Origin: an uncultured Ruminococcus sp. | Lineage (GTDB): Bacteria > Bacillota > Clostridia > Oscillospirales > Ruminococcaceae | Assembly: GCF_902762735.1 (NCBI RefSeq) | Contig: NZ_CACWPP010000007.1 | Span: 1-62,891 of the forward strand | Length of the DNA stretch: 62,891 nucleotides | Reading direction: 5' to 3' | In this document: positions 41,174-61,633 of the stretch, piece after piece | Layout: every line of letters begins with the position of its first letter | How positions within the stretch are numbered: position 1 is the stretch's first letter | Program-made: the position numbers and the translations under genes | The notes under the pieces: generated by a model | The model's input: only the letters and a program-made list of their open reading frames with translations | Told to the model about the DNA's origin: nothing | The model's database searches: none

Positions 41174-41383
41174 AAACGATCCCGATGTGGGGGCGTATCG
41201 CTTTGCTGTATCAAAGGCGGTACGCTCTCTCAGGCGGGTAAAAATATGACCGATGCGTTTTGCTATGCAAATTAATGGCAATACAGGGTGCAAAACGGGA
41301 AAAGTATTATTTATAAAGTATTATTTATTATGGGTAATTGGGAGTTAGCTTGCCCTCAATGCGGGCAGTAAGGAGTGTATATT

Positions 41384-43066
41384 ATGAGTGAAATGATTAT
41401 AGTAAGACCTGACAAGTGCGTGGGCTGTAACGCCTGCGTAAGGTCATGTCCTGCGCCTGAGGCGAATATAACAAAGATAATCGAAGGCGGCAGATTCATC
41501 ACGATGGTAAACAATGACAGATGTATCGGCTGCGGTGAATGTGTAAAAAACTGTAATCACGGTGCAAGAGACTATATCGACGACACTGATGAAGCTATGA
41601 GCAGAATGAAGAAGGAAAAGATGATAATACTGGCTACGCCTGCGATAAAGACTGTATTCCCCACAAAGTGGAAAGGCATACTGGACTGGTTCCGCAAGCA
41701 GGGCTGTATCATCTATGATGTTTCTTTCGGCGCTGATATATGCACATGGGCACATCTGAGGGCGATAGAGCAGAAGAAGGTCGGCAACATGATAACTCAG
41801 CCATGCTCTGCTATCGTCAAGTATGTGGAGACATATCAGCCTAAGCTGCTGGCTAACCTTTCGCCTATACACAGCCCTGTTTCGTGCAGCGCGACATACA
41901 TAAAGAAGTACCTCAACAGAAATAACCCGATAGCAGTGCTGTCAGCATGTATCGCAAAGAAGTTCGAGTTTGAGGAGACAGGTCTGATAGAGTATAACAT
42001 CACTTTCAAGAAACTGAGTGAGTATTTTGAGAAGAACGGTATCAGCATACCTGTTTCAAATACTGATGATTATGATTATCGCTTTGATGACCAGCAGGGT
42101 CAGCTCGGCGCTATCTATTCGCGTCCAGGCGGACTGAGAGACAATCTCTGGCTGCATAATCCCGATATTAATATCACAACATCGGAGGGCGTGGGCAAGG
42201 TCTACCGCGAGCTGGATATGTATGCCGAGATGCCTGATTTCAAGCATCCCGAAGTCTTTGATGTGCTTTCATGCGAGTTCGGCTGCAATATCGGACCCGG
42301 TGCAGGCGCTAACCAGACCATGTTCGATGTCATGGCGACTATGAAGGAAGTAGAGAACGAGGCTAAGAGCCGCCGCAAATCAGGCTTCATGGGCAGGGGC
42401 GACGACAAGATGTTCAAGAAGTTCGATGATGAGCTGAAACTCAATGACTTCCTGAGAAACTATAAGCCTGTTACTCCTACTCCCGTCCCCACAGAGAGAC
42501 AGCTGGAGAACGTTTATGAGAGCATGGGCAAGATCGAAGAGGACGACAAGCACTTTAACTGCCGCGCATGCGGTTACAGGTCATGCCGTGATATGGCTAT
42601 CGCTATATACAGAGGTCTGAATACACCCGATAACTGCGTTATCCATGCGAAGAGCGTGATGGTAGCAAGACACAGCCAGCTGGCTGAACAGCATGAGAAA
42701 CTGGCGGAGATAACATATGAGTGTCTCGAACTTTCAGATAAGCTGAAAGAGGGTGTTGAAAATATCCTTAAAAATATGGAGACTATCGGCGAGTCTACCG
42801 CAAAGACCAGCGAGAGGGCAGGTGTCGTAAGAAATCTGCTGGAGAATGTCGTTGCGTTCTGTAATGATAACTCCACTATGGATGCAGACAGCGTGAGTCA
42901 GCTCATTACTATTCTGGAAACTACCATAGACGCTTTCAGTGCGCTTGATGACAATGTTAATGTCACAAATGAAAGCTCGGGCTTTATCAATAATTCGATC
43001 GGAGATATAACCAACCTGGTCGACGAGATCAATAAGACTCTCCACAAGACTACTGAGAAGAAGTGA
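41384..43066 (+). CDS. Sensory-type [FeFe]-hydrogenase-like protein with C-terminal helical signalling region
   Basis: 560 aa from ATG 41384 behind AAGGAG. The N-terminus has two [4Fe-4S] ferredoxin motifs, CVGCNACVRSCP and CIGCGECVKNC (about 12-58). The H-cluster domain follows with recognisable loops: L1 as TQPCSAIVKYVETYQPKLLA, L2 as SACIAKKFEFEE and L3 as SCEFGCNIGPGA, so the four H-cluster cysteines are kept. The Cys that relays protons in catalytic enzymes (first Cys of TSCC) is Pro here, as expected for sensory rather than catalytic forms. An extra FeS module (NCRACGYRSCRDMAIAIYRG, about 389-408) is followed by about 130 residues of coiled coil like a chemoreceptor stalk. There is no PAS domain and no output enzyme in the chain. 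Confidence 0.82.
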   Translation: MSEMIIVRPDKCVGCNACVRSCPAPEANITKIIEGGRFITMVNNDRCIGCGECVKNCNHGARDYIDDTDEAMSRMKKEKMIILATPAIKTVFPTKWKGILDWFRKQGCIIYDVSFGADICTWAHLRAIEQKKVGNMITQPCSAIVKYVETYQPKLLANLSPIHSPVSCSATYIKKYLNRNNPIAVLSACIAKKFEFEETGLIEYNITFKKLSEYFEKNGISIPVSNTDDYDYRFDDQQGQLGAIYSRPGGLRDNLWLHNPDINITTSEGVGKVYRELDMYAEMPDFKHPEVFDVLSCEFGCNIGPGAGANQTMFDVMATMKEVENEAKSRRKSGFMGRGDDKMFKKFDDELKLNDFLRNYKPVTPTPVPTERQLENVYESMGKIEEDDKHFNCRACGYRSCRDMAIAIYRGLNTPDNCVIHAKSVMVARHSQLAEQHEKLAEITYECLELSDKLKEGVENILKNMETIGESTAKTSERAGVVRNLLENVVAFCNDNSTMDADSVSQLITILETTIDAFSALDDNVNVTNESSGFINNSIGDITNLVDEINKTLHKTTEKK

Positions 43067-43352
43067 TCGGATAAGCCGCCTTTGTGCGGTAAAGACTTCC
43101 GGGCGTGCGCAGTGGGGCTGTCAGAAGCGTAAATGGCTGTGGCGCTGAGAGAAAACGGCATCAGTGCCGTCTGCTGAAAAAAGTGCGCATGGTCTGTACA
43201 CGGAGGCGCACGGCATGGAGCAGTTTATTCGGTAGGATAATATTTTTTGCGGCAGAGTCTTGCAAACAGCAGGGCTTTGCCGCTGAATTTTTATCGAAAA
43301 CGTTATCTTTGTTTAATATCGGTAAAATATAGCCTTAGAGGGTCATTTTTAC

Positions 43353-43381
43353 TTGACAATTTTATCAAAAAGTGGTATACT
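43353..43381 (+). promoter_or_regulatory. Sigma-A promoter of the kinase/phosphatase operon
   Basis: TTGACA (43353-43358), 17-bp spacer ending AGTGG, TATACT (43376-43381). Apart from this, 43067-43538 shows no gene or repeat that I recognise. It leaves a leader of about 150 bases before 43539. Confidence 0.85.
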
Positions 43382-43538
43382 GAAATAAATGTATTTAGAG
43401 TGCAATTTGGATAAAATAATTACCATTCATAAGCCGCTGCGTGAAGCTCTTTTTGAACAGAATGCGCATGCTCGTATGCGGCGCGGAATATAAAAAGAAT
43501 GGCGAAAACAAAATTTTATATGTCAGGAGAGAAGATTT

Positions 43539-44600
43539 ATGCAGTGTGAAAGATGTAATGCTGAGCTGCCGCCCAAAGCCATAGAGTGTCCTAATTGCGG
43601 CGCACCTGCTCCGCAGAATATCGAAGGCTTTGAAAATACCATGGAGATCCAGCACATACTGAAGACCATCATGGAAAAACATGGCAGCATACTTATCAAT
43701 GACCCGACCCAGTTCGTGTCGATGCTGAATGATTACTTGGCAGCATACGACAAGGAACGCAGACTGCTGGTAAATGCTATGAGAGCGGGCGTTCTCAAAA
43801 ACATGGTCAAGGAAGAAAAGACCAACAGGGAATATGCTCTGCTGAGTGCGAAAAGCTATATGATAAATGAGCTGTTCGTGTCGGAAAATGCAGCGGAATT
43901 CGTGCTGGCATGCTTCACATATACGCTGGGCTGGCCCTACGATTCTTCCATGTCGAAGAATAAAGAGCCTGAAAAGCCCGCAGAACCCGTTGAGGAAGAG
44001 AAGAAGCCCGAGACACCAAAGCTCAGACCTGATACGAAAATATTCAAGTCGTCAGATGCCACAAGGCACAGACTGGCAAGAAATATCACGATCCCCGAAG
44101 GCTTCACCAAGATAGACAGCTTCTGCTTTGACAGATTCAACTTTATGAGGTCGATAAAGCTGCCATCTACGATGATAGCTATCGGAGACTATGCATTCTC
44201 CGAATGTAAAAATCTGAAAGGCGTTGAAATGCCCGAAAGCCTCAGGGTCATCGAGCAGGGCGCGTTCAGCCAGTGCGGCAAGCTGGCGATGATAAAAATA
44301 CCGAGAGGTATACTGGAAATACCGGATAATACCTTTGAGTTCTGCGCTAATCTCAGCGTGGTAGATATACCGAATACTGTCAGCAGCATCGGCGTTGAGG
44401 CTTTCTCGGGGTGTGAAAAACTCGAAAAGCTGTTCCTGCCCGACAGTGTCAAGTTCATCGACAAAAATGCTTTTTCTTATTGCCCGCAGCTTACTATCCG
44501 CTGCTACGAAAACTCATATGTGCATAAGTATTGCCTTACTTATAACATTGACTTTGAAACAGTGCAGATAGGCGTGGGTCTGAAGCAGAAGCCAATATAA
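43539..44600 (+). CDS. Zinc-ribbon plus BspA-type leucine-rich-repeat protein
   Basis: 353 aa, first gene of the six-gene operon. The N-terminal zinc ribbon is CERCNAELPPKAIECPNCG (about 3-21), followed by a helical region and an acidic linker with EPVEEEKKPE. Five or six LRR_5 repeats occupy about 190-340 (SIKLPSTMIAIGDYAFSECK, GVEMPESLRVIEQGAFSQCG and so on). There is no signal peptide, so unlike most BspA-type proteins it should be cytoplasmic. A scaffold role for the kinase/phosphatase pair is inferred. The ribosome-binding site is AGGAGAG. Confidence 0.8.
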   Translation: MQCERCNAELPPKAIECPNCGAPAPQNIEGFENTMEIQHILKTIMEKHGSILINDPTQFVSMLNDYLAAYDKERRLLVNAMRAGVLKNMVKEEKTNREYALLSAKSYMINELFVSENAAEFVLACFTYTLGWPYDSSMSKNKEPEKPAEPVEEEKKPETPKLRPDTKIFKSSDATRHRLARNITIPEGFTKIDSFCFDRFNFMRSIKLPSTMIAIGDYAFSECKNLKGVEMPESLRVIEQGAFSQCGKLAMIKIPRGILEIPDNTFEFCANLSVVDIPNTVSSIGVEAFSGCEKLEKLFLPDSVKFIDKNAFSYCPQLTIRCYENSYVHKYCLTYNIDFETVQIGVGLKQKPI

Positions 44601-44623
44601 GGAAGTAATGGAGGAAGTAGCAG

Positions 44624-45967
44624 ATGGTAGAATTAAAGATCGGCCAGGAGGTCGAGATGGAATTCGGAGGGAGAGCGAAAGTCCTCAAGGTCATCGGCAG
44701 CGGTGGTCAGGGTATCGTTTACCTCGTAGAATTCAATTCCCAGAAATGGGCGCTGAAATGGTATGATATTGATAAGATCAAGCGTCCGAAGGAATTCAGG
44801 CAGAATATCAAGAACAATATACAGGACGGTGCGCCAAGCAATAAGTTCCTGTGGCCTAAATATCTCACAAAGGAAAATGCTGACGGCACTTTCGGCTATA
44901 TCATGGAGCTGAAACCCGAGAGCTTTGACTCTTTCGTGGATATACTCAATACCTACAAGCTGGTCATCGACCCGCTGACAGGCAGGGCGACCAAACAGGC
45001 TGTAAGATTCCAGAGCCTGTATGCTATGGTCACTGCGGTCATAAATATAGCAAATACGTTCAGACAGCTGCACCGCGCAGGCAAGAGCTATCAGGACCTT
45101 AACGACGGTGGTTTCTTCATCAACGTCAATACAGGCGCTGTACTGGTCTGCGACTGCGATAATATCGCGCCCGAAGGCTCGAACTTCGGCATCGGCGGTA
45201 AGCCCGGCTACATGGCACCCGAAGTAGTAAGGGGCATCGCAAAGCCTGATGTGCAGACAGATAAATACTCGCTGGCAGTCGTGCTGTTCAAACTGCTGTT
45301 CAGGGGCGACCCGATGGAGGGCGAAAAGGTCGTTAAGGACGTTTGCCTCACCGAAAGCTCGGAGCTGAGACATTACGGTCAGGACGCTGTGTTCGTTTAC
45401 GACCCCGATAATGCCACGAACAGACCTGTAAGAGGCATTCACGACAACGTTATCAAGTTCTGGAGGATATACCCCAAGTATATCAGAGATGCTTTCATAC
45501 TGTCGTTCACTCAGGGCATCGCAGACCCCAATAAGCGTATAATCGAGAATGAATGGCAGAAGCTGTTCATCAGACTGAGATCTGAGATAATACAGTGCGT
45601 GTGCGGCAGAACTAATTTCACCTCCATGTTCGCTAAGTCCGATGAAAAAACCTTCCGCTGCCCCAAGTGCGGCACGGAGTTCGCAACACTCGGCTTCAGC
45701 AACAGGGAAAACAGAATGCCGCTGTATGTGGGCTGCAAGTTCTATAAGTGCGAGATAGACCCCGATTGCGATGATTTCCTGACAGTTGCGGGTGAGCTGG
45801 TAGAGAATAAACTCAAGCCCGGTGTGCTGGGTATCAAGAACTGCACTGAGGATACATGGAACGCTAAGCTCCCCGACGGCAAGTTCTACCCGATACAGCC
45901 CGGTAAAGGCTTCCCGATATGGAAGGATCTGGAGGTCGATTTCGGAAAAGTTACCGCGAGAATATAA
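44624..45967 (+). CDS. Ser/Thr protein kinase with C-terminal zinc ribbon (TerY-P-type kinase)
   Basis: 447 aa. Kinase elements are present in order: glycine loop GSGGQGIVY (about 26-34), ATP lysine in WALKWY, catalytic loop YQDLNDGGFFIN (the HRD site reads YQD, with the downstream Asn kept), the metal-binding Asp in CDCDN in place of DFG, and MAPEVV for APE. A zinc ribbon follows (CVCGRTNFTSMF ... CPKCG, about 325-352). A final domain has YVGCKFYKCEIDPDCDDF. No transmembrane segment. Kinases of this layout are known partners of TerY-like vWA and PP2C proteins, the next two genes. The GGAGG site is 8 bases before ATG. Confidence 0.88.
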   Translation: MVELKIGQEVEMEFGGRAKVLKVIGSGGQGIVYLVEFNSQKWALKWYDIDKIKRPKEFRQNIKNNIQDGAPSNKFLWPKYLTKENADGTFGYIMELKPESFDSFVDILNTYKLVIDPLTGRATKQAVRFQSLYAMVTAVINIANTFRQLHRAGKSYQDLNDGGFFINVNTGAVLVCDCDNIAPEGSNFGIGGKPGYMAPEVVRGIAKPDVQTDKYSLAVVLFKLLFRGDPMEGEKVVKDVCLTESSELRHYGQDAVFVYDPDNATNRPVRGIHDNVIKFWRIYPKYIRDAFILSFTQGIADPNKRIIENEWQKLFIRLRSEIIQCVCGRTNFTSMFAKSDEKTFRCPKCGTEFATLGFSNRENRMPLYVGCKFYKCEIDPDCDDFLTVAGELVENKLKPGVLGIKNCTEDTWNAKLPDGKFYPIQPGKGFPIWKDLEVDFGKVTARI

Positions 45968-45990
45968 TTTAGGAAAGGGCGAAAAGATTT

Positions 45991-46803
45991 ATGAATAATA
46001 ATAACAATGAGGTTAAGGAAAACACCACTGTTGATGACCTGCTGGATTTTGATGATGATGATCCCCTCGGCGCTACGGCGGTCTCGAAAAAGAGTCTTGT
46101 AATCTTCTTCCTGATAGATACTTCGGGAAGCATGAAGGGCAAGAAGATGGGTCAGCTGAACACCGTTATGGAAGAGCTGATACCTGAGATAAGAAGAGTC
46201 GGTGAGGCTGATACCGATGTTAAGGTCGCAGTACTGACTTTCGATACAGACGTTAAGTGGATGTATTCAGCTCCTATCTCCATAGAGGAGTTTGAGTGGG
46301 CAAGACTTGGCGCACAGGGCGTTACAAGCATGGGCGCTGCATTCACCGAACTGGCTGCAAGAATGTCGAGAAACAGCTTCCTGAACTCGCCTTCACTGTC
46401 CTTTGCACCCGTAATGTTCCTTATGACAGACGGTTATCCTTCTGATGACTATAAGGCAGGTCTGAAGGCACTTCAGGCCAACAGCTGGTACAAGTTCGGT
46501 CTTAAGGCTGCGCTGGGTATCGGTGATGAGGCGAATGACGATATGCTGGAAGAGTTCACAGGCTCTAAGGACACTGTTGTTCACGCTTACACAGGCGGAC
46601 AGCTGGCTGCGATGATAAAGATAATCGCAGTAACAGCTTCCCAGATAGGAAGTAAGTCAATGACACTTTCCGACGAAACTAACGAAGAGCTAAGCGATGA
46701 GGACGTATTCGCAGCTAAGCAGAAGATGCTGGGTCAGCAGATCCAGGAACTGGTCGGCGACCAGACCGATGCAGGCGACGTTCCTTACGATACGGGCTGG
46801 TAA
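45991..46803 (+). CDS. TerY-like von Willebrand factor A protein
   Basis: 270 aa, cytoplasmic. After an Asn- and Asp-rich N-terminus (DDLLDFDDDDPLG) the vWA fold carries an intact MIDAS: DTSGSMKG (about 43-50), the Thr in GVTSMGAAF, and LMTDGYPSDD. The closest named family is TerY of tellurite-resistance systems. It would bind a divalent metal and possibly a protein partner phosphorylated by the upstream kinase. The gap to the kinase is 23 bp. Confidence 0.88.
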   Translation: MNNNNNEVKENTTVDDLLDFDDDDPLGATAVSKKSLVIFFLIDTSGSMKGKKMGQLNTVMEELIPEIRRVGEADTDVKVAVLTFDTDVKWMYSAPISIEEFEWARLGAQGVTSMGAAFTELAARMSRNSFLNSPSLSFAPVMFLMTDGYPSDDYKAGLKALQANSWYKFGLKAALGIGDEANDDMLEEFTGSKDTVVHAYTGGQLAAMIKIIAVTASQIGSKSMTLSDETNEELSDEDVFAAKQKMLGQQIQELVGDQTDAGDVPYDTGW

Positions 46804-46836
46804 ATCGTAAGATGTCGGAAGGAGTGTTGGAAGAAA

Positions 46837-47742
46837 ATGTCTTTTAATGGCTTTAGCCACTCGGTAATGGGTGCCAGCCACGTGGCAAAAGGAATAGTGT
46901 GCCAGGACAGCTCGGCGCACAAGATAACCGACCGTTATGCTATTGCTGTGGTGGCGGACGGTCACGGAAGTAAAAAACACTTCCGCAGCAATATAGGCTC
47001 GCAGTGCGCTGTTGAAGCCACTATCGAGACGATCGACAGGTTTTATGAGGACCCTGATGCGTTTGAGAAAAATCTGCCGAAAAATCACAAAATGATAATC
47101 AGAAATATCGAAAGACAGATAATCGCGGCGTGGAACACCAAAGTGATGAAGCATCTTGAGGAAAATCCTGTTACAGTTGTTGAGAAGAAGCCTTTCACAC
47201 AGGAGGAATTTGAGGCGATAAACCCTGAATCTTACTATGGCACTACGCTGATCGCGGCAGTGGCAGGCAGGGGATTTACTTTCGGCGTGCAGATAGGCGA
47301 CGGCAGTTTCGTGGCTATTTTTGAGGACGGTGAGGCTGTTATGCCGATGGAGTATGAAGAGGCTAATCCCGCAAACATAACTTCGTCGATGTGCAACGCC
47401 AACGCCGCTTCGATGTTCGAGAGCTTCTATGTAGATGACAAGCGCCTTATAGCGCTGTTCTCCTCGACTGACGGGCTTTATACGTCTTTCGGCAGTGAGT
47501 ATGATTTCAGAGATTATCATGTAATACTCGCATCGCAGGTAAATTCGCCCTCGCTGGAAGCGTCTGTGGTGAAAAACATAACAAAGAGGTCGCATTTCGG
47601 TACAGAAGATGATATATCGCTGGCATGCGTTTACGATGTTGAGTTTGCTCAGGAAAAAGTTGATCTGCTCAAGGAAATGATCGAGCGCAATAAGAAGCTC
47701 GCCGCTGAAAGAAAAGCACGGCTTCATACTGCGAATTTCTGA
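46837..47742 (+). CDS. PP2C-type protein phosphatase
   Basis: 301 aa. PP2C motifs: metal-binding Asp in CQDSS (about 24-28), VVADGHGSKKHFRSNIGS (about 39-56), YGTTLIAAV, and SSTDGLYTSF near 209, with DDISLACVY at the end. All metal-ligand Asp residues are in place. Probably reverses phosphorylation by the kinase at 44624. No membrane anchor. Third member of the kinase/vWA/phosphatase triad; ribosome-binding site GGAAGGAG. Confidence 0.9.
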   Translation: MSFNGFSHSVMGASHVAKGIVCQDSSAHKITDRYAIAVVADGHGSKKHFRSNIGSQCAVEATIETIDRFYEDPDAFEKNLPKNHKMIIRNIERQIIAAWNTKVMKHLEENPVTVVEKKPFTQEEFEAINPESYYGTTLIAAVAGRGFTFGVQIGDGSFVAIFEDGEAVMPMEYEEANPANITSSMCNANAASMFESFYVDDKRLIALFSSTDGLYTSFGSEYDFRDYHVILASQVNSPSLEASVVKNITKRSHFGTEDDISLACVYDVEFAQEKVDLLKEMIERNKKLAAERKARLHTANF

Positions 47743-47787
47743 TCGCGTTGGGCATAAATTGGAAAATTGTATAATGGGGTGTTTAAA

Positions 47788-48783
47788 ATGGAAAAGAAAA
47801 AGGATAATAAAAGTATTATCATTATAATTGTTTGTATATTCATTTATCTGGGATGCAGCTTCTTGCAGACAAGAATATCCAGTCCCGGTGCTGCGGCACA
47901 GCAGGCTGCGCAGCAGGCAGGTCAGTCAGCACAGGCAGCACAGCGTGCAGGCGCTGCTGCCGGCAACAACCCGATGGCGGGCGTAATAGTACAGATACAG
48001 GTCGTTGTAACAGTCGTTCTGACACTGTTTGCTAAGAAAAAAGGCTTTATAACCGCTATGATACTCAATGGTATCAATGCTTCTTATCTGCTGATCGTAC
48101 ATATGATAATCAACGGCAGTAAAAAGTCGATGCCGGGCTTTATCGCGGTGCTGATCTCGATGGGTATCTCGACGATAATCTACATTTATACGAGCAGGAA
48201 CGATAAGATAACAGATGAGCTGAAAGAGAGCTATCAGGAAGCTATCGCTAAGAACCGCATCATCGAAGAGCAGGACGAGACCCTCAAGTATATGGCATAT
48301 TATGACAAGCTGACAGGTATGCCCAACAGAGAGAATTTCATGGAGCGCCTTGAAAAGCAGATCAAACAGAGCGGTGACTGCGTAATGATCTACATAGATC
48401 TGGACGATTTCAGACGCATCAACGATAACTTCGGTCATGCAATAGGCGATGAACTGCTGAAGCAGTACGCTGACAAGATCAAGACCTACTGCGGCGGCAA
48501 CACTTTTGCGGCTAAGATAGGCGGCGATGAGTTCGGCATAATCCTTGGCAACGGCATGACTAATGAGGCTATATTCAAGTATGCAACAGGTATCAGCGGC
48601 ATATTCAGTGAGCCTATATCTATGGGCGGCAACGTTTATACAGTAGCTGCAAGCTATGGTGTTGCCAGCTTCCCTGAGAATGCCATGACAGCAGATGACC
48701 TGTTCAGATGTGCTGAGACTGCGATGTTCAACGCTAAGGAAAGCGGTAAGAACCAGCTTTGCTTCTACACAAGACAGGGCTAA
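47788..48783 (+). CDS. Membrane-bound diguanylate cyclase (GGDEF)
   Basis: 331 aa from ATG 47788. The first helix (about 8-28) is followed by a Gln/Ala-rich stretch (AAAQQAAQQAGQSAQAAQRA, about 35-54), then three more hydrophobic segments to about residue 140. A short coiled coil leads to the GGDEF domain: YYDKLTGMPNRENFMERLEK, IYIDLDDFRRINDNFGHAIG and an intact IGGDEFGI (about 251-258). No RxxD inhibitory site is seen just before it. It makes c-di-GMP, which links the phosphorylation triad to a second messenger. Gap to the phosphatase 45 bp. Confidence 0.88.
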   Translation: MEKKKDNKSIIIIIVCIFIYLGCSFLQTRISSPGAAAQQAAQQAGQSAQAAQRAGAAAGNNPMAGVIVQIQVVVTVVLTLFAKKKGFITAMILNGINASYLLIVHMIINGSKKSMPGFIAVLISMGISTIIYIYTSRNDKITDELKESYQEAIAKNRIIEEQDETLKYMAYYDKLTGMPNRENFMERLEKQIKQSGDCVMIYIDLDDFRRINDNFGHAIGDELLKQYADKIKTYCGGNTFAAKIGGDEFGIILGNGMTNEAIFKYATGISGIFSEPISMGGNVYTVAASYGVASFPENAMTADDLFRCAETAMFNAKESGKNQLCFYTRQG

Positions 48784-48809
48784 GACCCGATTCATTGGAA
48801 AGGTAATTG

Positions 48810-50249
48810 GTGTTTGGTATGGAAATAAACGAGCTTTATAATCTGGCTAAACAGTATGCAGATATGATAATGCAGAGCAAGCCTGAGTATATTTCCGAGA
48901 GCGATTCAGCTGTATGCGTTATTGTTGACAAAGATGAACAGCCTATAACAGGTGTTACAACTGTTACAGTAAAAGGCGGTCAGGTCGAAACAGTGCCTGC
49001 TGAAACGGTGGCTGTAAGACGTTTTATAGACAGCGCCGACAGTACTGCTGCCAAGAAGATCGTCACACTTCTTTTCAAGGACGGCAATGTGGTAAATACA
49101 GGAAAAGCAAGTCTTATGATACTGGCGCAGGCAAATCCTGCAAATGGTGACTGCTGTGTGCTTACTTCTCCCGAAGAAGGCACACTGCTCAGGGAGATCG
49201 TCCCTGTGCCTGAGGCTGCACCTGTTGTTGAGAAAGCACCTGAGGTCAAAGCAGCGGCTGAACCGAGTATGATGGATCTGATGGACGGTTTCGACGTTGA
49301 TACCGATACTGAGGAGAAGTCTGCGGCTGATAAGAAGGCAGTTAACGCCGCTGAGAGTGTCGGCGCACCTGCTGAGTTTGCTGATGGTTTCAGCGTAGAT
49401 GAGAGCAATCCTTTCTTTGAGGCTTCTGCTCCCGCAAACGGCGCGGCGGCTGTAAATACGATCGACAACGGCGGTGTCAAGACAATGTTCGACCACCCGA
49501 GCGATGCGACTGCACAGGGCGCGGCAGGTTTCAATATACCTCCGACGATGCAGCAGGGCTACCCAAGACAGGGCATGCAGAGCGGCTATCCCCAGCAGGG
49601 AATGGGCTATCCTCAGCAGGGCGTGCAGAGCGGTTATCCCCAGCAGGGAATGGGCTATCCTCAGCAGGGCATGCAGAGCGGTTATCCCCAGCAGGGAATG
49701 GGCTATCCTCAGCAGGGCATGCAGGGCGGCTATCCCCAGCAGGGAATGGGCTATCCTCAGCAGGGCATGCAGGGCGGCTATCCTCAGCAGGGAATGGGCT
49801 ACCCTCAGCAGGGCATGCAGGGCGGCTATCCCCAGCAGGGAATGGGCTACCCTCAGCAGGGCATGCAGGGCGGCTATCCTCAGCAGGGCATGGGCTTCCA
49901 GCAGCAGCCGATGCAGAACGGTTTTCAGGGCGCAGGTACGACAGTTCGTCCCGCTGTTAATAATGGCGGCGTAGTTTCTACCATGATGAAGATGCCTGGC
50001 GTTGGACAGACTTCGATACAGGTAGGCGATATTTCATCGAGACAGGCTGTAAGCCAGAGCATCAAGTCCATCAGCACCGATGAGCTGCGCAGACCATCAA
50101 CATTCGCCTCGACGATTGATGATGATGACGAAGATGAAGAAGAAGTGCCAATGACTCTGGATGAAATGAGGAAACTGGCTAAGCAGAAGAAAAAGAACGC
50201 CAAAGTAAACTCGAATTTCAAGAAGAAGATGAGAGATTCAGGCTTCTGA
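48810..50249 (+). CDS. Protein with possible deaminase-like N-terminal domain and YPQQGM repeats
   Basis: 479 aa. Starts TTG 48807, GTG 48810 and ATG 48819 are all possible; GTG has the best spacing to AAAGG. Residues about 1-130 are compact: [33 protein letters not shown] and [11 protein letters not shown] line up loosely with cytidine-deaminase strands and its (C/H)AE helix, but the Cys pair of the zinc site is not convincing ([10 protein letters not shown]). An acidic linker follows, then about seven copies of a 16-residue [15 protein letters not shown](S/G) repeat (about 250-365). The C-terminus is acidic then basic ([27 protein letters not shown]). Last gene of the operon. Confidence 0.65.
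49557..49895 (+). repeat. 48-bp coding tandem repeat (YPQQGM)
   Basis: About seven copies of a 48-bp unit GGCTATCCYCAGCAGGGMAT ... CAGCAGGGCATGCAG(A/G)GC. The copies differ mainly at third codon positions, so the repeat is maintained at protein level. It encodes [15 protein letters not shown](S/G). Confidence 0.9.
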
Positions 50250-50258
50250 TATAATGAA

Positions 50259-50293
50259 AATGCCGTTGGAGATCATTCCAACGGCATTTTTTG
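50259..50293 (+). terminator. Terminator of the kinase/phosphatase operon
   Basis: Stem AATGCCGTTGGA / TTCCAACGGCATT with a short loop, followed by a T-run, 10 bp after the last stop codon. Confidence 0.92.
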
Positions 50294-50320
50294 TTATGCG
50301 TATTGTTAGCTGAATATATG

Positions 50321-55572: not shown

Positions 55573-56868
55573 ATGAAAACAGCATACACATGCTTCTGCA
55601 CCGATGTCATACACGAGGGACATATGAAAGTCATCGCGCAGGCGGCTTCACTGGGAAGAGTCGTGGTGGGGTGCCTGTCTGACAGGGCGCTGATACGCTA
55701 CAACAAATTCCCCACCATAAGCCAGCAGGAAAGGCTCGCGCTTTACCGCAGTATCAAGGGCGCAGATGAGGTCATCATGCAGGAGGATATGCTCTATGAT
55801 GATGTGATACCCGCTTTAAGACCCGACTATGTGGTACACGGCGACAACTGGGCTGAGGGTCCCGCCGCCGCCATCAGGGCGCATGTTGAAGAACTTCTTG
55901 CAGAGTACGGCGGCAGGCTGGTCAATATCCCCTATACCTATAACGAGAATGTGCATAAGATAGACATGCAGCTGAGAAGAAAACTAGCTATGCCCGAATA
56001 CCGCCGCAAAAGGCTGAGACAGCTCATCGGGCTGACACCCATCGTCAAGATAATGGAAGCTCACAGCGGTCTTACAGGGCTGATAGTGGAGCGCACTGTG
56101 GTAGAGCGCGGCGGGCGGCTCGACCAGTTTGACGGCATGTGGCTCTCCAGCCTGTGTGACAGCACTGCGCGTGGCAAGCCCGATATTGAACTGGTTGACC
56201 TCACCAGCCGTTTCTGCACCATCGACGAGATAACGGAAGTCACCACCAAGCCCATAATTTTTGACGGTGATACAGGCGGGCTGACCGAGCATTTCGTCTA
56301 CACGGTGCGCACGCTGGAAAGAATGGGAGTTTCGGCGGTAATAATCGAGGACAAGTGCGGGCTTAAACGCAACAGCCTCTTCGGTACCGATGTCTGCCAG
56401 ACACAGGCTGATACAGAGGACTTCGCCCGCAAGATAGCCGCAGGCAAGCGGGCACAGCTGACCGATGACTTTATGATAATAGCCAGGATAGAGAGCCTTA
56501 TCCTTGAAAAGGGCATGGAAGATGCGCTGACAAGGGCGTTCGCATACACGGCGGCGGGTGCTGACGGCATAATGATACACAGCCGCAGGACCGAACCGAC
56601 GGAGATACTGGATTTCTGCGACAGGTTCAGGGCGGTGGACAGTAAGACCCCTCTGGTGGTCGTGCCAAGCAGTTTCAACAGCATCACCGAAGAAGAACTG
56701 GCGGCGCATGGGGTCAGCATAGTGATATATGCCAATCAGCTGACGCGGGCGGCTTTTCCCGCCATGCAGAAAACCGCTGAGAGCATACTGATAAACCATC
56801 GTGCAAAAGAGGCAGATGAAATGCTGATGCCGATAAAGCAGATAATAACACTGGTGGACGAAGTGTAG
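55573..56868 (+). CDS. aepX: Phosphoenolpyruvate mutase with N-terminal nucleotidyltransferase domain
   Basis: 431 aa. The first ~130 residues are a cytidylyltransferase-like domain with TDVIHEGHMKVI (HxGH, about 10-21) and YVVHGDNWAEG; the usual ISTT motif near its end is not seen. The PEP mutase domain (about 140-431) has VDLTSRF, FDGDTGGLTEHF and the diagnostic EDKCGLKRNS (about 257-266) that separates mutase from isocitrate-lyase relatives. It forms the C-P bond of phosphonopyruvate. The ribosome-binding site AAAAAGGAG is good. Phosphonopyruvate decarboxylase follows 20 bp downstream. The 200 bp before it include a further MITE-like end (AGGTGTGTCAGCGGATAGAC, about 55526). Confidence 0.9.
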   Translation: MKTAYTCFCTDVIHEGHMKVIAQAASLGRVVVGCLSDRALIRYNKFPTISQQERLALYRSIKGADEVIMQEDMLYDDVIPALRPDYVVHGDNWAEGPAAAIRAHVEELLAEYGGRLVNIPYTYNENVHKIDMQLRRKLAMPEYRRKRLRQLIGLTPIVKIMEAHSGLTGLIVERTVVERGGRLDQFDGMWLSSLCDSTARGKPDIELVDLTSRFCTIDEITEVTTKPIIFDGDTGGLTEHFVYTVRTLERMGVSAVIIEDKCGLKRNSLFGTDVCQTQADTEDFARKIAAGKRAQLTDDFMIIARIESLILEKGMEDALTRAFAYTAAGADGIMIHSRRTEPTEILDFCDRFRAVDSKTPLVVVPSSFNSITEEELAAHGVSIVIYANQLTRAAFPAMQKTAESILINHRAKEADEMLMPIKQIITLVDEV

Positions 56869-56888
56869 GTCTGCCGCAGGAGGAAAAT

Positions 56889-58007
56889 ATGAAAGTACAG
56901 GATTTTGCAGAAATAATAGGCGCAGATTTTTATACGGGCGTGCCCGACAGTCAGCTGAAAGCGCTGTGCAATTATCTCATGGACAGGTACGGCATCGACG
57001 GCAGACACCACATCATCGCCGCCAACGAGGGCAACTGCGCGGCACTGGCGGCAGGCTACCACCTGGCAACGGGCAAAGTGCCTGTGGTGTATATGCAGAA
57101 CAGCGGCGAGGGCAATATCATAAACCCTGCGGCAAGTCTGCTGAATGAAAAGGTCTATGCCATACCGATGCTGTTCGTGGTCGGCTGGCGCGGTGAACCT
57201 GGTGTCCATGACGAACCTCAGCACATCTATCAGGGCGAGGTCACGGTGAAACTGCTGGAAGATATGGGCATATCCGTCTTTGTGATAGGCGCGGATACTC
57301 CCAACGAAGAAGTCAGCGCGGCTATGGCAGATTTCCGCGAGGTGTTCCGAAAAGGCAGACAGGCGGCTTTCGTCATACGCAGGGGCGCACTGACCGATGC
57401 ACCGAAAGTCACCTATAAAAACGACTGCACCATGACCCGCGAAGATGTCATAAAGCATATCACAGCAGTCAGCGGCGATGACCCCGTAATATCCACCACA
57501 GGCAAGGCGAGCCGTGAGCTTTTCGAGATAAGAGAAGCGAATTCACAGGGGCATGGGCTTGACCTGCTTACAGTAGGTTCAATGGGTCACAGTTCTTCAA
57601 TAGCGCTGGGCGTTGCACTCAATAAGCCAAAAAAGCGCGTCTGGTGCATCGACGGTGACGGCGCAGTGCTGATGCACATGGGCGCGATGGCGGTGATAGG
57701 TGCGCAGAAGCCCGCAAACCTTGTCCATGTGGTGATAAATAATTCAGCCCACGAAACTGTCGGCGGCATGCCCACCGTTGCGGGTCAGGCAGACCTTGTG
57801 GGCATCGCAAAAGCCTGCGGCTATCCCCATGCCGTCAGGGTGGACAGCTTCGATGCACTTGACTGCGAGCTTTCGGCGGCAAAAGACAGGCGTGAACTGA
57901 GCTTCATCGAGGTCAGGTGCGCACTCGGTTCAAGGGACGATCTCGGCAGACCAACTACCACCGCCGTCGCTAACAAGCTGGCATTCATGGAAGCGCTTGC
58001 TGAATGA
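56889..58007 (+). CDS. aepY: Phosphonopyruvate decarboxylase
   Basis: 372 aa ThDP enzyme. It pulls the unfavourable PEP mutase step by converting phosphonopyruvate to phosphonoacetaldehyde. Motifs: FYTGVPDSQLKALCNYL (about 19-35), the ThDP Glu region in NEGNCAALAAGYHLATGK, and the ThDP/Mg motif CIDGDGAVLMHMGAM ... VVINNSAHETVGG (about 253-300). Ppm and Ppd form an operon with GGAGG before the start. The third gene expected for aminoethylphosphonate (a transaminase) is not in this window. Confidence 0.93.
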   Translation: MKVQDFAEIIGADFYTGVPDSQLKALCNYLMDRYGIDGRHHIIAANEGNCAALAAGYHLATGKVPVVYMQNSGEGNIINPAASLLNEKVYAIPMLFVVGWRGEPGVHDEPQHIYQGEVTVKLLEDMGISVFVIGADTPNEEVSAAMADFREVFRKGRQAAFVIRRGALTDAPKVTYKNDCTMTREDVIKHITAVSGDDPVISTTGKASRELFEIREANSQGHGLDLLTVGSMGHSSSIALGVALNKPKKRVWCIDGDGAVLMHMGAMAVIGAQKPANLVHVVINNSAHETVGGMPTVAGQADLVGIAKACGYPHAVRVDSFDALDCELSAAKDRRELSFIEVRCALGSRDDLGRPTTTAVANKLAFMEALAE

Positions 58008-58106: not shown

Positions 58107-58221
58107 GTGATTATCCCGCTGATACACCAGAATAAACGATGTTATATCGGGAATTGAATACAGTTGGCGCTTATCTTTTTGTTTACCGCATTTTTAGTTG
58201 GTGTGCTAAAGGGATAGTCAT
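58107..58221 (-). mobile_element. MITE-like element, B subtype, in the EAL gene leader
   Basis: 115 bp, ends GTGATTATCCCGCTGATACA and GTGTGCTAAAGGGATAGTCA; middle as in 39579 on its left and as in 3669 on its right, i.e. a hybrid of both internal types. Flanks AAAATAAAAT and AAAATATTGG match only at 6-7 positions, so the duplication is weak. Confidence 0.75.
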
Positions 58222-58309
58222 AAAATATTGGTGCAGTCTAACAATAACGACGACAATACGATACGGTATAATACAACACGAGTTGAACTCACAACGAGGA
58301 TTTGATATT

Positions 58310-61300
58310 ATGGGGAGTACAAAAAAGCGTATAGCTCTGTTTGCAGGACAGGCAGATGAAAGCTACCAGAGTAAATTTATAACGGGATTTTGCGCGGTCG
58401 CATTCAGACTGGATATGGATGTCTGTGTGTTCTCGATGTATCATAAGTACCAGAATACCGCTGTCCGTGAAAAAGGCGAGGCTAATATCTTTGAGCTGAT
58501 GCAGCCCGAGCTGTTTGACGGTGCTGTGATACTGGAAGATACGATACAGACGGCAGGTGCGGCAAAACGCCTTGAACAGCGCCTGCACGAAAATTTTGAC
58601 AAGCCCGTGCTGGTCATAGAGACTGACAGTCCTTATTTCCCGAGCGTTTTTACCGACTGCCATGACGCGGTGGTGGAACTGGTCAGCCACCTGATAGAGG
58701 TGCATGGATATAAGGATATTGCTTTTCTCGCAGGCAAAAAATGGCATAAGCACACAAAGCTCAGGTTACAGGCGTTCAAAGATGCGTTGGAAAGTCATGG
58801 GCTGGTGCCGAGCGATGACAGGATAATTTATGGCGATTTCTGGTATCTCAGCGGTGAGGCGTGCGCTGATACACTGCTTTCAAGCGAGAGGGGACTGCCC
58901 GAAGCGGTGGTGTGTGCCAATGATGCTATGGCGATAGGACTCTGCAAGGCGCTGACCGAAGAGGGAATAAATATACCCAAAGATATTGCGGTGGTGAGCT
59001 ATGATTCGACCTTTGAGGGACAGACTTCGCCCAAGACCATAACTTCATCGCTGATACCAGCCGAAGAGATAGGGCGGTATGCGGCGAAGTATATGAGTGA
59101 CAGGTTCGCGGGAAGAGAGACTGATGCATTCTGCGCCGAACCCTATCTTGTGATAGGGGAGAGCTGCGGCTGCAAGCAGACGAATATCCCCGAATTTACC
59201 ATGCGCAGGCGCGAATGGGGCACAGATATTTCGGAAGAGGGCTTCAATTCAGTCAATAATACGATGGCTGAGGAGCTGCTGATGCAGACCGAGCTTGACG
59301 GATTTATAGGCACAGTATACTCTTATGCTTTCCAGATAAAGGGGGCGAAGAGCTTTCATCTCTGTCTTTGTGACCAGTGGAAGTATATGGACAGGAGCAA
59401 GGACTTAAAATGCCGAAATCAGGGCTATCCCGATAAGATGATATACGCTGTCAGATACAACAGCGACCGCAAGGACGGCATAGCGGGCGTTGACAACGGA
59501 TTTGACCTGAAAGAGATACTTCCCGGTCTTACGGACGAGCATGATGAGCCGCGCATGCTGATATTCACACCCGTTTTCTTTGAGGATAACTGCTTCGGCT
59601 ATGCGGCGGTGGAGTACGGTCAGCCGCGCAGTTATGACGATATTTACCGCAGGTGGATCGGCGTTGTGGCACGCGGTCTTGAGGGGCTGAGAAGATTTGT
59701 CACCGTAAGAAGCCTTCAGGCACAGATGGAAAAGTATAAGTCGGGCAGGTTCACGGCGATGTCGGCGTATGAAAGGCTCGATGATGACGAGAAGGAAGAC
59801 TATGAGCTTGTGACAAGGATACTCGATGACAACCTGCTGTCATACCGCTTCCAGCCGATAGTCAATACGACAGACGGACGGATCTATTCATATGAGGCGC
59901 TGATGCGTTCGGCAACGGACAAGCGCGTTCCGCCGCTTTCGATCGTGAAGTATGCCGATATGCAGAACAGGCTGGCTGATGTTGAAAGGGCGACTTTCAT
60001 CAACGTGCTGAAAATAGTGGAAGAGAATATGGATATTATAGGCGATGCGAAGATATTCATAAACAGCATACCCGGTGTCAGGCTGACGGGAGATGACCTG
60101 ACGGCGGTGGAGAGTTCGCTGAAAAGGCTGGGCGATACAGTTGTGGTAGAACTGACAGAAGAGGCTGAGATGGACGATGATGATCTGAACAGGCTAAAAG
60201 AGACGTTCAAGCGCATGGATGTTAAGATAGCGGTCGATGATTACGGCACAGGCTATTCAAATGTAAGCAACCTGCTGAGGTATATGCCCGACTATGTAAA
60301 AATAGACCGCGCACTGCTGAGCGATGTGCAGAACAAGCCGCAGAAACAGCATTTCGTAAAGGAAGTCATAAGCTTCTGTCACGACAACGGAATAATGGCG
60401 CTGGCTGAGGGCGTGGAGACCACAGAAGAACTGAGGGCATGCATACTGCTGGGGGCTGACCTGATACAGGGATTTTACACAGGTAAGCCATCAAACGTAT
60501 TTATGCCCGATACCGATGCCAAGATAAAAGCCGAGATCTGCAAATATCACGAGGAATATATGCAAGGCGGCGCGGTAAGGCAGTATATTGCGGGCAAAAC
60601 CAACCGTGTCGGGCTGTCGTCACTGGTCAAGGACGGCGTGAGCGAGATAGTTGTGGGTCAGGGTGCTATGATCTATAAGGATATAACAGTGTTCGGTACA
60701 CCCGGCGTAAAGACAGGTGTGCATATCAGGATAGAACCTGAGTACAAGGGCATGATAACTCTGGAAAACGCATATCTGTCAAACGATGTGAAAAATCCGT
60801 GTATAGATGTGGGTGAAAAGGCAGATGTCACGCTTGTGCTGACGGGCGATAACACGATGAAAAATACAGGTATACTCGTTCCGAAAAACGCAAGGCTGGC
60901 GGTCGAGGGTGACGGCAATCTCAGGATAGAGCTGAGGGCGCTGGAATATTACGGGATAGGCAATCTGCCCGCAGAAGAGCATGGCGAGCTGTTCTTTGCG
61001 CCGTCGGGTACTGTGGAGATAAATGGTCATGGTGTGAACGGAAGCTGTATAGGTTCGGGTCTTGGCGGAAAGATAAAGCTGGTCAGCGGGCGGTATCTGC
61101 TTGATGCTGACGGGCATGATGCGGTGTGCATAGGCGCACTTTACGGCGATACCGAGATAGAAGCTGAGGACTGTGAGCTTTCGGGCGAATTCAGCGGTCA
61201 GCGGGGCGCGGGCGCAGGCTCGGTGACGGGCAGGGCTGATATTGCGCTGGACAGATGCACGGTGAAGCTGTACGGCGACGGCACAGATTCGGCAGGCGCG

Positions 61301-61633
61301 GGCAGTCTGACGGGCGCAGATGCGAAGATCTCGCTGAAAGACACGAACATGTATATCTCGCTCAACTGTGTGAACGGAACAGGTATAGGCGCATATCGCG
61401 GCATGACACGGTTCGGTGCGGAAAGATCACAGATAAAGCTGGAAGCTAAAGGCGAGAGCGCACTGGCATTCGGCGGCGGAGGCGATGACATTAGCGCAAA
61501 GCTGGTCGATACAGATATAAAGTGCAGTGTGAAGAGCCATAAGGACAAAAAACCTCAGCTGCGTCACGAGAACTTTGTGCTTGAAAACAGCACAGGCAGG
61601 TTTGTGCTTAACGGTGAAGAGATACACTTCTGA
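58310..61633 (+). CDS. LacI-type substrate-sensor / EAL / beta-helix fusion protein
   Basis: 1107 aa from ATG 58310 behind ACGAGGA; the frame runs upstream into the MITE. (1) About 1-285: periplasmic-binding fold as in LacI/GalR effector domains but with no HTH (KKRIALFAGQADESYQSKFI, VCANDAMAIGLCKALTEEGI, DIAVVSYDST). (2) About 290-505: linker, GAF-like (LCLCDQWKYM, GYAAVEYGQP). (3) About 510-730: EAL domain with the key parts FQPIVNTTDGRIYSYEALMR, VDDYGTGYSN, VKIDRALL, ALAEGVETTEEL and LIQGFYTGKP, so it should hydrolyse c-di-GMP. (4) About 765-1107: a long series of short beta-strand repeats (right-handed beta-helix, carbohydrate-binding look). No signal peptide or membrane helix; cytoplasmic. 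Confidence 0.85.
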   Translation: MGSTKKRIALFAGQADESYQSKFITGFCAVAFRLDMDVCVFSMYHKYQNTAVREKGEANIFELMQPELFDGAVILEDTIQTAGAAKRLEQRLHENFDKPVLVIETDSPYFPSVFTDCHDAVVELVSHLIEVHGYKDIAFLAGKKWHKHTKLRLQAFKDALESHGLVPSDDRIIYGDFWYLSGEACADTLLSSERGLPEAVVCANDAMAIGLCKALTEEGINIPKDIAVVSYDSTFEGQTSPKTITSSLIPAEEIGRYAAKYMSDRFAGRETDAFCAEPYLVIGESCGCKQTNIPEFTMRRREWGTDISEEGFNSVNNTMAEELLMQTELDGFIGTVYSYAFQIKGAKSFHLCLCDQWKYMDRSKDLKCRNQGYPDKMIYAVRYNSDRKDGIAGVDNGFDLKEILPGLTDEHDEPRMLIFTPVFFEDNCFGYAAVEYGQPRSYDDIYRRWIGVVARGLEGLRRFVTVRSLQAQMEKYKSGRFTAMSAYERLDDDEKEDYELVTRILDDNLLSYRFQPIVNTTDGRIYSYEALMRSATDKRVPPLSIVKYADMQNRLADVERATFINVLKIVEENMDIIGDAKIFINSIPGVRLTGDDLTAVESSLKRLGDTVVVELTEEAEMDDDDLNRLKETFKRMDVKIAVDDYGTGYSNVSNLLRYMPDYVKIDRALLSDVQNKPQKQHFVKEVISFCHDNGIMALAEGVETTEELRACILLGADLIQGFYTGKPSNVFMPDTDAKIKAEICKYHEEYMQGGAVRQYIAGKTNRVGLSSLVKDGVSEIVVGQGAMIYKDITVFGTPGVKTGVHIRIEPEYKGMITLENAYLSNDVKNPCIDVGEKADVTLVLTGDNTMKNTGILVPKNARLAVEGDGNLRIELRALEYYGIGNLPAEEHGELFFAPSGTVEINGHGVNGSCIGSGLGGKIKLVSGRYLLDADGHDAVCIGALYGDTEIEAEDCELSGEFSGQRGAGAGSVTGRADIALDRCTVKLYGDGTDSAGAGSLTGADAKISLKDTNMYISLNCVNGTGIGAYRGMTRFGAERSQIKLEAKGESALAFGGGGDDISAKLVDTDIKCSVKSHKDKKPQLRHENFVLENSTGRFVLNGEEIHF

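Follow-up and report, generated by a model that had tools for sequence, protein, structure and literature searches.

The DNA analysed here (the window) is a stretch of 62,891 nucleotides, contig NZ_CACWPP010000007.1 of an uncultured Ruminococcus sp. (assembly GCF_902762735.1), whose genome (4.06 Mb, 242 contigs) is Ruminococcus albus-like. Between positions 43539 and 50249 it carries six tandem open reading frames (ORFs), separated by gaps of 23, 23, 33, 24 (or 45) and 23 (or 35) bp depending on the start codon chosen, which encode a leucine-rich repeat (LRR) protein, a Ser/Thr kinase, a TerY-like von Willebrand factor A (vWA) protein, a PP2C phosphatase, a GGDEF protein and a last protein, here called REP (Table 1). 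Pfam assigned LRR_5, Pkinase, VWA, PP2C_2 and GGDEF above cut-off and nothing to REP. The first-pass annotation, a reading of the letters alone, had listed the same six tandem genes with the same domain calls, a promoter at 43353 and a terminator near 50259, and all of this is borne out. The kinase-phosphatase core of this operon is of a known kind, and its receptor-like and deaminase-like partners look new.

Table 1. Coordinates of the operon, its signals and its upstream border (positions in the window)
Feature	Position	Strand	Support
[FeFe]-hydrogenase-like protein, split from the operon by a hairpin and a promoter	41375..43066	+	Fe_hyd_lg_C E 8e-24
Terminator-like hairpin at the boundary between hydrogenase-like gene and operon	43249..43283	+	hairpin scan
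Promoter-like site TTGACA-17-TATACT, TG before the -10 hexamer	43353..43381	+	11/12 consensus positions
LRR protein, 353 amino acids (aa): zinc ribbon 3-23, helical adaptor ~28-148, BspA-type LRR_5 190-318	43539..44600	+	LRR_5 E 1e-49
Ser/Thr kinase, 447 aa: zinc ribbon C325-C349, beta-rich C-terminal domain ~360-447	44624..45967	+	Pkinase E 5e-10
TerY-like vWA protein, 270 aa: metal-ion-dependent adhesion site (MIDAS) D43-x-S45-x-S47, T112, D147	45991..46803	+	VWA E 5e-10
PP2C phosphatase, 301 aa	46837..47742	+	PP2C_2 E 8e-36
GGDEF protein, hydrophobic N-terminal stretches, start TTG 47767 or ATG 47788	47767..48783	+	GGDEF E 3e-35, domain 48295-48756
REP protein, start TTG 48807 or ATG 48819: predicted deaminase-fold domain ~48819-49193, YPQQGM-rich tail, basic C-terminus	48807..50249	+	AlphaFold, Foldseek
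48-bp tandem repeat coding for the YPQQGM stretch, 6.8 copies, 96% matches	49569..49896	+	repeat search
Intrinsic terminator, perfect 10-bp stem (50261-50286) followed by T6	50261..50292	+	fold of 50256-50300, -21.9 kcal/mol

Judged by these signals, the six genes probably lie on one transcript. Hexamers and spacer of the promoter-like site are identical in all five R. albus-group loci that have 300 bp upstream, and 65 of 76 loci have a site with at least 10 of 12 consensus positions in the 300 bp before the LRR gene, as opposed to 34 of 400 random 300-bp stretches, which are mostly coding and thus an imperfect control. The terminator is visible in the sequence, though a general hairpin scan of the region, which gave 12 terminator-like sites where 7.1 were expected, left it unlisted; a strict search recovered an exact-stem terminator after REP in 18 of 66 relatives. 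Beyond Pfam, which was run on 18 proteins out of a larger total in the window, the NCBIfam scan of window proteins gave only the GGDEF domain above cut-off, and PHROGs gave general matches only.

The relatives compared below are the best 80 of 243 kinase matches; they were chosen by kinase likeness, and many are metagenome-assembled. A locus was counted as complete if it reached at least 1.2 kb to the left and at least 4.3 kb to the right of the kinase gene, which applies to 64 of the 80. (Numbers with L denote loci, with G genomes, and with C contigs of the window's own genome.) The order LRR-kinase-vWA-PP2C-REP is kept in all 64 complete Ruminococcus loci, and a GGDEF gene stands between PP2C and REP in only 10 of them (12 of 80 in all), which marks it as a lineage-specific insert, by gene order, and not a fixed part of the operon. 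The earlier proposal of a single syntenic system therefore stands for five genes, but the six-gene unit as proposed has to be rejected. Being present in 64 of 64 rather than 10 of 64 complete loci, REP is also a more constant candidate for the output than the GGDEF protein. Median identity to the window is 81% for the kinase, 81% for the vWA protein, 66% for PP2C, 54% for the LRR protein and 30% for the REP domain; a slow kinase/vWA core with fast outer genes is the pattern expected of a sensor and an effector. The kinase gene itself has its top match in the GTDB collection, 99% identical, in Ruminococcus albus 8. Within the genus, 21 of 29 genomes (15 of 20 among the good-quality ones) have it at E <= 1e-30, as do 3 of 398 genomes of the phylum, window genome counted; at E <= 1e-70, a kinase of this type occurs in 17 of 148 genomes of the family.

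The three central proteins are well conserved at most sites that matter for their activity. In the kinase, K45, D158, D177 and the APE motif are invariant in 80 of 80 rows, as are the vWA MIDAS residues (76 of 76) and D24, D41, G42, D212, D258 and D259 of PP2C (75 of 75). Zinc ribbons had been called on the LRR protein and the kinase; both score outside or below the Pfam cut-offs, and the calls are upheld by their cysteines, of which C3, C6, C17 and C20 are invariant in 78 of 78 rows of the LRR protein and C325, C327, C346 and C349 in 80 of 80 rows of the kinase. The AlphaFold model of the kinase is poor (mean predicted local distance difference test score, pLDDT, of 61), and its Foldseek matches are general kinases with low template modelling scores (TM-scores). 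From this model we used only the beta-rich C-terminus, where residues 341-447 form a block with a pLDDT of 77-94. A sequence search of the PDB yielded one weak match each for the vWA protein and the kinase and no match for PP2C. At another locus (L033, 8516-10747), a kinase-PP2C pair occurs without a vWA gene; its kinase, a paralogue, has Ala in place of the catalytic Asp and is likely a pseudokinase.

The suspected relationship of kinase, vWA protein and PP2C to the triad of tellurite resistance (ter) systems is supported by detectable homology. With tblastn, the vWA protein matched plasmid genes annotated as 'TerY-C metal binding domain-containing protein' at E 2e-12 to 4e-10 among the matches listed, and the kinase matched a ter-region plasmid kinase at E 4e-12, over window residues 142-353 and thus including the zinc ribbon, in a region showing TerY-C, PP2C and kinase consecutively. 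The TerY-P triad is described, in the available text of PMC11090510, as a vWA protein, a PP2C and a Ser/Thr kinase with a C-terminal zinc ribbon. The window set agrees with this in having all three members adjacent and a zinc ribbon on the kinase, but differs in a kinase branch with a beta-rich C-terminal domain, a vWA protein for which Pfam gave no TerY_C match, the absence of TerD from the contig, and its adaptor-LRR and deaminase-fold partners. By these comparisons the window triad is a distant relative of the ter-operon triad, on another branch. In the anti-phage type of TerY-P (Gao et al. 2020), as far as PMC11090510 was available, an OB fold replaces the zinc ribbon of the kinase, whereas the window kinase keeps the ribbon and could have added an OB fold in its beta-rich tail. 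The nearest published architecture found, going by the accessible part of Kaur et al. 2020 (PMC7159879), is that of the GAP1-N2 systems, in which a kinase-zinc ribbon-beta-rich protein is encoded next to PP2C and vWA; these sets are GTPase-linked and restricted to actinobacteria, whereas the set described here belongs to Ruminococcus and is linked to LRR and deaminase-fold proteins.

Homology to ter-operon proteins might suggest that the operon is a metal- or stress-sensing TerY-P module that operates without Ter partners, with the LRR and deaminase-like proteins as accessories. The genome does contain TerD genes: five matches were found, two of them on C87 (L126), followed by a P-type cation ATPase gene, and the others on C47 and C73. 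None is on the contig of the window, in line with the lack of Ter partners reported before, and TerC was not seen among the 18 window proteins scanned, where no dedicated PF03741 search was made. However, the stretches of C87, C47 and C73 that bear the TerD genes contain no relative of the kinase or the vWA protein. The ter-type triads of the family (L036-L038) are moreover organized as vWA-PP2C-kinase, with kinases of about 490 residues sharing ~26-29% identity with the window kinase. The one at L037, which has two TerD genes and one for a P-type cation ATPase beside it, has a kinase of 491 aa with ~26% identity, and a P-type cation ATPase lies alongside the triad of L038 as well. Together with the missing TerY_C match, this makes a metal or stress function of the present operon unlikely.

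The LRR protein connects the operon to triads outside Ruminococcus through its adaptor domain, for which Pfam gave no match above cut-off and whose helical nature was judged from composition. In a first round, a profile of this domain matched ORFs of the distant loci L136 (6e-12), L130 (~1e-6), L135 (2e-4 to 6e-4) and L138 (3e-3); after addition of these matches it gained L035, L137 and, weakly, L129 (6e-4 in the last round). Adaptor proteins thereby lie beside six of seven distant full triads of the window kinase type (L035, L129, L130, L135, L136, L138), L034 being the triad beside which none was found, and beside none of four ter-type triads (L036, L037, L038, L131); short loci repeating the same places and the 4.8-kb contig L140 are left out of these counts. 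The C-terminal parts of the adaptor proteins differ from locus to locus and include FGE-sulfatase (L136, L129), Sel1 (one L130 protein and L137) and DUF6273 (4 of 4 in L035). It could be argued that no single system exists here and that the genes are merely neighbours conserved by descent, with the GGDEF gene as a passing insert: all Ruminococcus loci share a common ancestry, which makes synteny alone weak evidence, and elsewhere in this genome the module occurs again with two genes fewer. Yet a single inherited neighbourhood would hardly account for adaptor proteins that accompany triads in Bacillota, Bacteroidota and Pseudomonadota and differ in their C-termini, and we regard this view as very improbable.

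Some of the distant loci recall systems involved in biological conflicts. On a Methylomonas plasmid (L130, 10882-15415), five consecutive adaptor proteins are encoded behind the triad, and on a Prevotella plasmid the row that contains a relative also includes a gene annotated as a 3'-5' exonuclease. At L035 (7345-16782) the triad is accompanied by four adaptor proteins with DUF6273, and a reverse transcriptase is encoded there as well (RVT_1 E 2e-15), an arrangement that resembles a retroelement-diversified receptor set; a simple scan of 18 kb revealed no A-biased pair of template and variable repeats. According to the available text of PMC10743442, a DUF6273-like domain resembles the C-type lectin, and conflict sensors diversified by diversity-generating retroelements (DGRs) are described, in the part of PMC10907252 at hand, as having a recognition domain of the C-type-lectin kind fused to a signalling N-terminus. 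The window differs from DGR systems in that no reverse transcriptase is found among the genes scanned, and for L035, which has one, the simple scan gave no repeat pair. A TerY-P system has also been reported, in the accessible portion of PMC10889362, to protect P. aeruginosa PAO1 against phage. The operon might thus be an anti-phage or other conflict system, similar to the TerY-P defence triad or to DGR-linked sensors, but its neighbourhood is shared within Ruminococcus and its kinase present in most genomes of the genus, which is more typical of a resident locus than of a patchy island, and none of the 18 window proteins scanned has a significant match to mobile-element or restriction proteins. 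PADLOC gave no match for the vWA protein and PP2C and, for the kinase, only the kinase models of other systems; as the ter-type and plasmid controls behaved alike, this result carries no weight. We consider a role in conflict rather unlikely.

The last gene had been noted for its YPQQGM repeats. This repeat tail is real, and of 68 orthologues 51 carry four or more YPQQ-like units and 12 carry none, but the description falls short, as REP begins with a domain predicted to have a deaminase fold. The AlphaFold model of this domain (48819-49238, alignment of 45 rows) reached a mean pLDDT of 91.2. Foldseek gave 54 matches at E <= 0.001 (best E 7e-6), of which the 50 listed are all deaminases acting on cytidine or blasticidin S, with TM-scores of 0.49 to 0.65 when scaled by query length. 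PF00383 (cytidine/deoxycytidylate deaminase) matched seven of eight REP proteins, three of them above cut-off (best E 1e-7), in a set of orthologues selected for whole or partial zinc motifs; no match was obtained for the window copy. The zinc motifs of deaminases are [HC]-x-E and PCxxC. In an alignment of the window and 74 relatives, of which 74 rows have letters at the zinc site, H-x-E together with PCxxC is found in 8 rows, PCxxC alone in 2, and the Glu in 58; the motifs are not whole in 66 rows including the window, which reads PAE and has no PCxxC, and both are whole in L039, which lies outside these rows. We thus predict for the N-terminal part of REP a cytidine-deaminase fold whose zinc site is degenerate in the window; REP differs from cytidine and blasticidin S deaminases in these zinc motifs and in its YPQQG-rich tail, and the R. 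albus protein would bind rather than deaminate. A profile of the REP domain matched, among the distant triad loci, only the second copy in the window's own genome (L032), and as far as seen the deaminase-like partner appears confined to Ruminococcus relatives. With a zinc site intact in some species and missing from others, this one orthologous gene would offer a way to study how binding proteins arise from an enzyme fold.

The GGDEF protein is putatively membrane-anchored, judging by eye from its hydrophobic stretches. Its motif is intact in the window and in 12 of 13 in-operon rows (L070 reads GGDQY), and no RxxD, the I-site motif, was recognized by eye at the I-site position. The in-operon GGDEF genes form one well-supported set in the GGDEF tree, apart from a second kind of GGDEF gene which is paired with a gene for a periplasmic binding protein; such pairs lie side by side upstream of the operon in 40 of 60 loci with enough flank. 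The set comprises 13 rows, 12 in-operon genes (window included) and the very long-branched L101; the bootstrap of the tree had not converged, and the in-operon gene of L079 fell outside the clustered set and hence outside the tree. Since L101 falls among the 12 in-operon rows, the in-operon label needs two changes on this tree. We had considered the in-operon gene as a recent copy of the binding-protein-linked one, which is not supported, as the two group apart. On the kinase tree (80 rows, quick method), three changes each are needed for the in-operon GGDEF label (13 rows) and for the whole zinc site of REP (8 rows), so that gain and loss are not distinguishable.

An output that includes cyclic di-GMP (c-di-GMP), as first suggested, could at best hold for a part of the lineage, as a GGDEF gene lies within the operon at 12 of 80 loci; with a different one upstream at 40 of 60, a link between the locus and c-di-GMP is plausible. 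A precedent for a stronger role is SiaABCD of Pseudomonas aeruginosa, in which, according to the portion of PMC7647112 available, a PP2C and a kinase act on one Thr of a partner and a diguanylate cyclase belongs to the set. Compared by these descriptions, PP2C, kinase and diguanylate cyclase in one set are common to both, and SiaABCD differs in having neither vWA nor LRR protein. Its kinase is presumably of another type than that of the window. By analogy, PP2C and kinase could set a partner that turns on the adjacent diguanylate cyclase, with c-di-GMP as the main output, and the largely intact GGDEF motifs, the upstream pairs (a pair of this kind also stands beside the second copy on C58) and the 31 GGDEF and 17 EAL matches in the genome are compatible with this. 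A constant diguanylate cyclase, as in SiaABCD, is however not what we find (10 of 64 complete loci). In the 60 loci with enough flank, 45 have either GGDEF arrangement, 4 both and 15 neither, and with 31 such genes in the genome some GGDEF neighbours are expected by chance. PilZ has no match in the window genome, and a search for c-di-GMP-I riboswitches found none, its controls being silent too. Overall, c-di-GMP as the main output seems quite improbable.

We give an even chance to the following interpretation, that the operon encodes a TerY-P type of Ser/Thr phosphorylation switch which is gated by a receptor, acts on a deaminase-fold protein and has a c-di-GMP side branch. The LRR part of the first protein could serve as its recognition part and sense a ligand or a protein partner, and zinc ribbon and helical adaptor would dock this sensor to the kinase-vWA-PP2C set. 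Between them, kinase and PP2C would control whether a target held by the vWA protein is phosphorylated; among possible targets or effectors, REP with its deaminase fold and YPQQG-rich tail is the most constant candidate. Where the GGDEF enzyme has been inserted, namely in R. albus and its branch and in a few relatives, it could add the c-di-GMP branch if under control of the switch. Fast outer genes here and swapped C-terminal modules in distant loci fit a sensor and an effector arranged around a fixed switch.

Several observations speak against this interpretation or weaken it. The first-pass annotation considered all catalytic residues that it could check intact, which is true of the sites listed above and of the window GGDEF motif but not of the kinase loop: in an alignment to a solved kinase, Gly163, present in 80 of 80 rows, stands opposite the Asn of HRDLKPSN, and the loop Lys position is Asn160. 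Kinase activity is therefore not certain, and the enzyme may be weak or may bind metal in a different manner. A wider alignment of 26 kinases has Asn at this site in four distant relatives (L016, L017, L034, L035) and Gly in 22, so the change belongs to the branch of the window kinase. The second copy of the module, on C58 (L032, 4881-11357), consists of LRR, kinase and REP genes, with a binding-protein-GGDEF pair divergent from them, and is without vWA and PP2C, so the triad is not always needed; REP could also be a scaffold instead of a target. Among loci without a full triad, the adaptor is present in L137 (kinase only) but not in L139 (kinase only) or L033 (kinase-PP2C). Not all adaptor proteins have a recognizable C-terminal module either: of the three L130 proteins scanned, the two besides the Sel1 protein have Tim44 and no Pfam C-terminus, respectively, that of L138 has no C-terminal match, and in L135 one of three has a match below cut-off. 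Within the LRR protein, identity is 65% for the LRR part, 65% for the zinc ribbon and 49% for the adaptor; since the LRR part has changed no more than the zinc ribbon, these values do not point to rapidly evolving recognition among members of the genus. Finally, the adaptor occurs in 16 of 17 genomes having the kinase type (E <= 1e-70) and in 0 of 131 others (Fisher p 2e-20 for 148 genomes, the adaptor and kinase searches being taken as the same genome draw because numbers and labels agree), a p-value that overstates the association: the profile was built from kinase neighbours, and in most of the 16 genomes the gene found is a close orthologue of the one in the window. Co-occurrence is thereby partly built in. 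Of the adaptor matches, 21 of 22 are on the contig of the kinase, within ~10 kb; G036 has its match on another contig, and G122 has the kinase without an adaptor. That the adaptor is joined to different C-termini, and occurs in Bacillota, Bacteroidota and Pseudomonadota alike, is a stronger argument than this p-value.

A more far-reaching version, which we put forward tentatively, places the LRR protein in a widespread and so far unnamed family of cytoplasmic bacterial receptors in which the adaptor, accompanied by a zinc ribbon only sometimes, carries one of several interchangeable modules for recognition (LRR, FGE-sulfatase, Sel1, DUF6273) and is coupled to one branch of the TerY-P switches. 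In Ruminococcus, a once-mobile conflict-type switch might then have turned into a resident regulator, and its deaminase-fold effector, from which the zinc site has disappeared in many lineages, might have become a binding protein whose tail is prion-like. The receptor-gated switch itself would, if correct, provide TerY-P with a candidate sensor and a candidate target encoded alongside, neither of which is named in the descriptions searched, as far as these were accessible. It would also link the triads of ter operons and defence loci to a family of modular receptors in which lineages exchange the recognition part, and would represent a conserved Ser/Thr signalling system in fibre-degrading rumen bacteria. 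In the literature searched, to the extent that its texts were available, neither an adaptor-LRR nor a deaminase-fold partner of the triad was found; Anantharaman et al. 2012, reportedly the founding TerY-P paper, is not covered by it and may describe one.

Around the operon, ORF clustering identified as frequent neighbours the hydrogenase-like gene, in 62 loci, and genes for a coiled-coil protein, in 61, for a membrane protein of 177 residues, in 57, and for a periplasmic binding protein, in 48, one member of which matches Peripla_BP_4 at E 2.5e-43. A relative of the hydrogenase-like gene lies within 8 kb, in several orientations, in 55 of 58 loci having at least 7 kb on both sides. In L051, L064, L068 and L101 it stops 14-24 bp before the LRR gene, as if co-transcribed. 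The window might contain, at ~43190-43240, the remnant of a small gene found after the hydrogenase gene in L044-L046, as a frame ending in AVYSVG and a stop codon resembles the TVYSVG ends of the small proteins of these loci, which we take to resemble the TM1266 hydrogenase-system family. Further downstream in the window, a PEP mutase with a cytidylyltransferase-like domain is followed by a thiamine pyrophosphate enzyme, as in phosphonate synthesis (55573-58007), and a gene at 58139-61633 encodes 1164 residues, among them an EAL domain (59822-60490).

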